Shown piece after piece: positions 6,133 through 7,913 of a stretch of DNA of 64,000 nucleotides. The DNA is from Trigonopsis variabilis (taxonomy: Eukaryota > Ascomycota > Trigonopsidomycetes > Trigonopsidales > Trigonopsidaceae), in assembly GCA_003707065.3 (NCBI GenBank), contig PPXM03000006.1, forward strand, positions 186,001 to 250,000, given 5' to 3'. The translations under genes and the position numbers were made by a program. Numbering within the stretch: position 1 is the stretch's first letter; every line of letters begins with the position of its first letter. Under the pieces are notes generated by a model. That model saw only the letters and a list, made by a program, of their open reading frames with translations. It was not told the DNA's origin and did not search any database.

Positions 6133-6519
6133 TTAGGCATTGATGTCGCAGAACATAGTGATTGACTTAAATCGGGCGGGGTGGAGGCAGTAGTTGTGCT
6201 TGACCATGGCACCGGCAGCCATGTTTCCGCACTTGTGGTCCGAGAAGGTTCGGATGAAGCAGTTGGTACCGTCGACATTGGTCTGGATAGAGTGGCCTCC
6301 AGTGATGTTCAAGCATCCGTGCATGTAGCCAATAGACCAGATGGTGTCACCTTCACAGTGTCCGCCAGTCTTGACCTCAAAGAGAGTGGTGGTACCCTCA
6401 CCGAGGACGTGGGGATTGCTGTCAAAGTCATTGATGACGGTTCGTCGCTCGACGAGGTCGACGGGAGTAGCGAGAACAGAGGCAATAGTCGAGGCTAAAG
6501 CGATGACTGAGAACTTCAT
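6133..6519 (-). CDS. Small secreted cysteine-rich protein, copy 1 (twin of 7527-7913)
   Basis: A 128-residue intronless protein of no family I recognise. Residues 1-17 form a signal peptide (M-K-F-S-V-I-A-L-A-S...A) followed by T-P-V-D-L-V-E-R-R. The dibasic R25-R26 looks like a Kex2 site that would leave a mature chain of about 102 residues. Six cysteines (55, 69, 87, 97, 111, 124) could form three disulfides, and N71-I-T is an N-glycosylation sequon. The start chosen is the ATG opening the signal peptide; a three-codon upstream extension is not shared with the twin. The protein is identical to the one at 7527-7913. The DNA is identical in nt 40-359, with four synonymous changes on each side. 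Leader and trailer are unrelated to those of the twin. Effector, adhesin or toxin-like roles are all possible; none is shown. Confidence 0.85.
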   Translation of the reverse strand: MKFSVIALASTIASVLATPVDLVERRTVINDFDSNPHVLGEGTTTLFEVKTGGHCEGDTIWSIGYMHGCLNITGGHSIQTNVDGTNCFIRTFSDHKCGNMAAGAMVKHNYCLHPARFKSITMFCDINA

Positions 6520-7526
6520 GGTTGGCAAGATTTGTTGTGAGGAAGAGAGTCGAGAGCAATATCATTGGCGCAGCAACGGCCGGGTAAGCTGTTTGTAAAC
6601 ACTGGCGACAAATGCCGCAGCCGACCTACCGAGCCGTAGTAACCGGCGGTAGATGCGGTCGAACTGGAGCGAACTGTCTCCGAGCGATTGCGCTCTCGAT
6701 TAAAAATGAACAAATTACAGGTTCAAATAAATTTATTTCAACTTGTGCTCATCTTTGCTTAACGCTTCTTGGAACTTACGTCTCTATTGAAGTCCATCTC
6801 TTTGTATCTACATCTACACCCTTTAGGGACACAAGTTTCCCTTTCTAAATGGTCCATGGCTTACTAGTAGCCAGGCTGGGCAGTAGACCCATCTGACAGA
6901 CGGACGGAACTTCTTCCTTTGACTGGCTTAGCTCGTCTAACTGAGCTCTACTGCGTAGCAATGGATAAGGCGCTGCTTGACGTCATCCTCAGTCATTCAT
7001 ACTCGGTCATTGATTCAAAACAAGCCACCAAGTCGCTTTCTTCTTCATGTCCAATGGTGGCATACGGTTACGTTTGGATCGTACTGACGATACGGTATGT
7101 TTTGCTATAGCCGTTTATTGCAGATTGTACCTTGTATCTCGCGCAAAGGAACCACTCTACTACCGTTCTTAGTCAGGTACGGCTAGGTCTTCCTTCCTAA
7201 TCTGGCATCTAGTCGGTATCGGATTCAGATCGGGACAGCTGTCTCTCCGTCATAGAGTCCCCGATAAAGGCCATTAACAAGTAAAATAATTCCTACTTAT
7301 TGTCAAGTTTCATACTTTTTGCTTGTAATTGAAGCTTTAAGCGTAGTTTTTATTTGTATCATAGCTTATCCGTTCCCTCACTGTATACCTTTTCCCTAAT
7401 TAGTCCCGCTCGGCCCGCCCGGCGTCCAAAAGAGGCGGCGCCAGCTGTTACCCGGACCAAGCGCTTGCCTCGCTTTTTCTTGTTGACTTTGCTTCTCTCC
7501 TTCTCTTTTTTTCTTGCTGCCCGACA
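6520..7526. promoter_or_regulatory. Divergent intergenic region between the secreted-protein twins
   Basis: About 1 kb with the two promoters of the twin genes. The two halves do not look like mirror copies of each other, so the duplication does not include the promoters as they now stand. The leader of copy 2 is pyrimidine-rich (7471-7515). No other gene is visible. Confidence 0.5.
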
Positions 7527-7913
7527 ATGAAGTTCTCAGTCATCGCTTTAGCTTCTACTATCGCTTCTGTTCTCGCTACTCCCGTCGACCTCGTCGAGCG
7601 ACGAACCGTCATCAATGACTTTGACAGCAATCCCCACGTCCTCGGTGAGGGTACCACCACTCTCTTTGAGGTCAAGACTGGCGGACACTGTGAAGGTGAC
7701 ACCATCTGGTCTATTGGCTACATGCACGGATGCTTGAACATCACTGGAGGCCACTCTATCCAGACCAATGTCGACGGTACCAACTGCTTCATCCGAACCT
7801 TCTCGGACCACAAGTGCGGAAACATGGCTGCCGGTGCCATGGTCAAGCACAACTACTGCCTCCACCCCGCCCGATTTAAGTCAATTACTATGTTCTGTGA
7901 TATCAATGCTTAA
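7527..7913 (+). CDS. Small secreted cysteine-rich protein, copy 2 (twin of 6133-6519)
   Basis: This encodes exactly the same 128 residues as the minus-strand copy: signal peptide 1-17, probable Kex2 site at R25-R26, six cysteines and one N-glycosylation sequon. Eight third-position differences separate the two coding sequences: nt 27, 30, 36 and 39 near the start and nt 360, 372, 375 and 384 near the end. All are silent. The pyrimidine-rich leader just before the ATG (CCTTCTCT at 7499-7506) differs completely from the leader of copy 1, so the two copies may be expressed differently. The start is the first ATG downstream of the leader. Function unknown; the open frame, signal peptide and conservation of the twin support a real gene. 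Confidence 0.87.
   Translation: MKFSVIALASTIASVLATPVDLVERRTVINDFDSNPHVLGEGTTTLFEVKTGGHCEGDTIWSIGYMHGCLNITGGHSIQTNVDGTNCFIRTFSDHKCGNMAAGAMVKHNYCLHPARFKSITMFCDINA

Follow-up and report, generated by a model that had tools for sequence, protein, structure and literature searches.

Twin genes in head-to-head orientation for a small orphan protein of a fungus: an identical core between diverged blocks points to gene conversion within the coding sequence

The window, which is the whole 64-kb stretch of fungal DNA that was analysed, carries two open reading frames of 128 codons each in head-to-head orientation. Copy A occupies positions 6519..6133 of the minus strand, with its ATG at 6519 and a stop codon that ends at 6133, and codes for a small, probably secreted protein with six cysteines. 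Copy B is found at 7527..7913 of the plus strand and encodes the same 128 residues in the divergent direction. The two genes form the inverted arms 6133-6525 and 7521-7913, which are 393 nt long, 97% complementary and 995 nt apart. A repeat search of the entire window, set to a minimum of 60 nt and a seed of 16 nt, reports these twins as the one inverted pair and finds no direct repeats. The 1007-bp spacer between the start codons (6520..7526) must contain both presumed promoters. An out-of-frame ATG precedes the start of copy A at -46 and opens an ORF of 45 codons (upstream part within 6520-6565) that runs across the main start; ATG is absent from the last 200 nt upstream of copy B. The upstream ATG of copy A, if transcribed, might lower the translation efficiency of this copy. 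Both copies also contain an open antisense frame of 105 codons that begins with GTG (6181-6498 on the plus strand and 7548-7865 on the minus strand). It lies mostly inside the segment that the copies share without differences and is probably a by-product of codon usage.

The pair stands by itself in the genome. In a search of 11,351,025 bases in 15 contigs, the protein matches two places of this 11.35-Mb genome, both of which are the genes described here, and no distant paralogue is detected beyond them at E-values up to 10. The spacer and the two trailers each match their own place only, without further copies in the genome search. The section of the contig sampled for repeats, positions 1-260000 or about 2% of the genome, holds five off-diagonal repeat pairs, and the four that are not the twins all lie within the first 2.7 kb. 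These contig-start sequences (1-2721) are direct repeats of ~80-240 bp with 80-93% identity, perhaps subtelomeric. The genes around the pair are ordinary cellular genes. Pfam analysis of 10 window ORFs assigns the neighbours to a mitochondrial carrier, eIF4E, MTHFR, a KDM5-type protein (ARID, PHD, JmjC and PLU-1 domains) and a GH31 glycosidase, and those located farther away to a class I tRNA synthetase (E/Q type), an MFS transporter, NAD synthase, a WD40 protein and a V/A-type ATPase subunit. Among the best 120 of 5442 matches to the neighbouring MTHFR (7999 candidates scored), proteins of Lipomyces and Limtongia come first with ~50% identity; identities in this set of 120 range from 44 to 53%, the 53% match spanning only half of the protein. 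The organisms named among these matches are ascomycetes, and the host accordingly looks like an ascomycete, its own MTHFR apparently being absent from the protein set.

The 128-residue product has a hydrophobic amino terminus by inspection, a dibasic RR at residues 25-26, cysteines at positions 55, 69, 87, 97, 111 and 124, and a single N-glycosylation sequon at position 71. These features suggest that it is probably secreted, and processing after the RR would leave 102 residues. Pfam and NCBIfam profiles give no family up to E=10. No homologue is found in a large protein set at E 1e-3 or at E 10, where four candidates share words with the query and none passes. Five sequence matches in the PDB with E-values of 0.59 to 1.2 were judged to be due to chance and were discarded as relatives. 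Single-sequence structure prediction yields a mean pLDDT of 33.7 and is unusable. By the sequence searches listed here the predicted protein is an orphan.

Alignment of the two 387-nt coding sequences reveals eight differences (nt 27, 30, 36, 39, 360, 372, 375 and 384), seven of which are C/T. All eight are silent third positions, so the encoded proteins are identical. The initial annotation had described divergent copies with the same 128 residues, identical from nt 40 to 359 and separated by four silent changes in nt 27-39 and four in nt 360-384, and the positions agree with ours throughout. It had also presented the differences as clustered at the ends of the gene. The clustering stands, whereas a diverged 5' end that remains open to the start codon does not: nt 1-26, with seven degenerate codons, are the same in copy A (6494..6519, minus strand) and copy B (7527..7552, plus strand). 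The four differences that follow are confined to an island at nt 27-39 (6481..6493, minus strand, in copy A; 7553..7565, plus strand, in copy B). The identical core, nt 40-359, extends over 6161..6480 of the minus strand in copy A and 7566..7885 of the plus strand in copy B, with no difference in 320 nt or in 102 degenerate codons, and represents the proposed conversion tract. The 3' block, nt 360-384, carries the remaining four silent differences (6136..6160, minus strand, and 7886..7910, plus strand). The pattern is a mosaic because nt 1-26 are identical in addition to the core.

When the eight differing codons are placed randomly among the 122 degenerate ones, an interior run of at least 102 unchanged degenerate codons has a probability of ~9e-7, and none of 1,000,000 simulated draws gives an interior run that long. 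This gap statistic is independent of block limits, which were set post hoc with the data already seen. With the blocks so chosen, none of the 102 degenerate codons of the core differs, whereas codons 9-13 and 120-128 together have eight differing codons among 13; codons 1-8, with 0 of 7, depart from the pattern of a simple tract. For the core, the share of differing degenerate codons has a 95% upper bound of 2.9%, to be set against the 8 of 13 of these end blocks, and its last common ancestor should therefore be considerably more recent than theirs. Saturation was gauged with the codon usage of the window (6382 codons from 10 ORFs), a yardstick that ignores gene-specific bias. Independent synonymous choice predicts ~3.6 differing codons out of 5 in codons 9-13 and 4.6 out of 8 in codons 120-128, and 4 are observed in each; jointly, ~8.2 differences are expected at full saturation and 8 are found. 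The same calculation predicts ~64.6 differing codons out of 102 in the core and 4.7 out of 7 in codons 1-8, where none is seen in either. The chance that all 102 degenerate codons of the core match is ~10^-47 on this window codon usage, gene-specific bias being ignored, and the identity of nt 1-26 under saturation has a chance of ~10^-3.55. Judged by codon usage, both end blocks have the appearance of saturation and the core that of recent origin, and nt 1-26 seem to be shared as well, the signal of age being carried by only 13 degenerate codons.

Outside the genes the two copies have nothing recognizable in common. Leaders, trailers and spacer had been noted before as unrelated, and local alignments of the flanks are indeed no better than those obtained after one flank is shuffled base by base (300 shuffles). 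Upstream, the observed score is reached in 181 of 300 shuffles with ~500 bp and in 112 of 300 with 150 bp; downstream, the figures are 191 of 300 (503 versus 313 bp) and 179 of 300 (150 bp). No similarity beyond that of the shuffles is detected on either side. The flanks are more diverged than the proposed conversion tract, as is the case in ectopic gene conversion, and the tract itself is an identical segment bounded by significantly more diverged sequence (core versus codons 9-13 and 120-128), as conversion would leave it.

We strongly favour the hypothesis that the pair goes back to an old inverted duplication, that recent ectopic gene conversion made its coding core uniform and that both copies are under purifying selection. 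The support for conversion is internal to one genome. The old head-to-head duplication would come first. The noncoding flanks would then drift until they could no longer be aligned, and the end blocks would diverge to near-independent synonymous choice. A break in one copy would probably be repaired from the other within the sole homologous block left, the coding sequence, and this recent ectopic conversion would homogenise at least nt 40-359. The tract would stay within the coding sequence, whose limits it could not pass because homology stops there. Its visible borders lie within ~40 nt of the end of homology, as expected if the coding sequence alone can still pair. Purifying selection on both copies is suggested because both are intact and all their differences are silent. 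About 23% of the possible single base changes are silent, which gives a probability of ~7e-6 for eight out of eight in an unselected sequence, a value that allows for no transition bias and that such bias would raise. Old duplication with recent conversion would explain the unalignable flanks, the saturated-looking ends, the identical core and the exclusively silent nature of the differences. Two proposals of the initial annotation are supported here: conversion inside the coding sequence accounts better than a recent whole-gene duplication for the clustering, the unalignable flanks and the silent differences, and selection is likely to have preserved both copies.

An alternative that we regard as unlikely is a recent inverted duplication of the ORF only, followed by a few mutations that chanced to fall near its ends. 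Such an event would also yield unrelated flanks, homology does end at the stop codon and no more than 6 nt from the ATG, and ORF-restricted duplication is noted in a Caenorhabditis review (PMC3966223). The duplication would nevertheless have found its bounds almost exactly at the start and stop codons by coincidence, and the few mutations that followed would have left 102 successive degenerate codons of the interior untouched (P ~9e-7) and been silent eight times out of eight (P ~7e-6 if unselected). Assemblies often go wrong at inverted repeats, so that a fold-back read or a collapsed or mis-joined repeat has to be considered as well. We hold such an artefact to be very improbable: a fold-back would duplicate the flanks, yet these are unrelated and match only themselves, and the copies differ at eight sites; the repeat is just 393 nt long, although a local consensus error could have polished the core to identity. 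Least probable of all is that ancient duplicates were kept identical without conversion by selection on silent sites through codon bias or RNA structure, for which the elevated GC3 and CAI of the core relative to the window ORFs (73/106 and 0.865) attest to some bias, but which would need the restraint to end at codons 13/14 and 119/120 and to match 102 degenerate codons against odds of ~10^-47 on a yardstick that ignores gene-specific bias, and which leaves the end blocks of copy B, with a CAI above that of the core, still different from those of copy A.

Base composition gives a hint about the direction of the conversion that we favour. At the eight differing sites G or C is present seven times in copy A and once in copy B. 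The GC3 of the core is like that of the copy A end blocks (10/14; P=1.0) and unlike that of the copy B end blocks (4/14; P=0.006, uncorrected and post hoc). Since the core resembles the end blocks of A and exceeds those of B in GC3, it is suggested that A overwrote the core of B, and copy A is weakly indicated as donor and copy B as recipient by this unplanned comparison of few sites. The core GC3 of 0.69 is also higher than that of the 10 window ORFs when pooled (0.50; P=1.7e-4) and than that of each one (0.44-0.55). Its CAI likewise surpasses each of the 10 ORFs (0.744-0.857) and is the highest among the genes measured, the end blocks of copy B reaching 0.99. With a CAI that tops those of the genes measured, the pair may be under some constraint at its silent sites, a point that speaks against our preferred reading. 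The high GC3 and CAI of the core could result from GC-biased conversion or from expression-linked codon choice, which are not separable here.

A single simple tract fails to explain identical nt 1-26 beside a diverged island. The shared segment includes the rare codons TTA (8% of Leu codons in window ORFs) and TCA (12% of Ser codons in window ORFs). Patchy repair of a longer heteroduplex, leaving a discontinuous tract, would account for it, and so would a distinct conversion at an earlier time or selection acting near the start codon. We tentatively prefer patchy or repeated conversion.

The unrelated upstream sequences are the basis for proposing that the pair could supply one product from two promoters. 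We also considered that a crossover between the identical 320-nt cores might flip the 1-kb spacer and act as a reversible switch, which seems to us quite unlikely. Such a switch would exchange the pairing between a promoter, together with its nt 1-39 block, and a 3' UTR while leaving the protein unchanged. The inverted repeats would in that way give the genes of an orphan secreted protein new pairings of promoter and trailer, and conversion would keep the arms of the switch matched.

The principle of conversion confined to a coding block is already well known. The pair described here provides a clean and compact fungal example of such conversion between inverted neighbours, if our preferred reading is correct, with tract borders that can be placed with a precision of a few codons and a hint of direction from composition. 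It also warns that twins of this type are not datable from the silent divergence of the gene as a whole. The locus further contributes an orphan protein, probably secreted, whose two copies, with unrelated upstream regions, are seemingly maintained. Literature titles and abstract openings revealed no fungal head-to-head pair with this pattern, though one may exist.

Several systems share parts of the arrangement. Budding yeast duplicates of low synonymous divergence mostly lack homology in their flanks, where it amounts to 0-10 bp in 80% of pairs on the 5' side and in 86% on the 3' side, and conversion and codon bias are invoked for their conserved coding sequence (PMC2728529). They resemble our twins as fungal paralogues whose coding sequence is conserved without flank homology; their low divergence has mixed sources that include whole-genome duplicates, whereas our pair is adjacent, inverted and mosaic along its length. 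The β-tubulin genes of Leishmania likewise combine concerted, conserved coding sequence with diverged noncoding sequence, a combination proposed to serve different expression, but their loci are on separate chromosomes and can be compared across species (PMC1533823). The hsp16 modules and the hsp70 pair of C. elegans are adjacent inverted paralogues like the present twins and are cited as cases of gene conversion, favoured as the reason for 100% identity in hsp16; the repeated hsp16 module, at 1.9 kb and with two genes, is longer than one coding sequence, unlike our repeat (PMC3966223). For the palindromic amylase genes Amy-p and Amy-d of Drosophila, concerted evolution is reported to be limited to the coding sequence, the flanks apparently evolving independently (PMC3924832). 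Those genes belong to another kingdom, code for an unrelated protein and are supported by several species where our pair is supported by one genome. Like Amy-p and Amy-d, the twins are linked paralogues of opposite orientation, and they show the arrangement of an Amy-like palindromic pair: adjacent, inverted and apparently homogenised in the coding sequence only.
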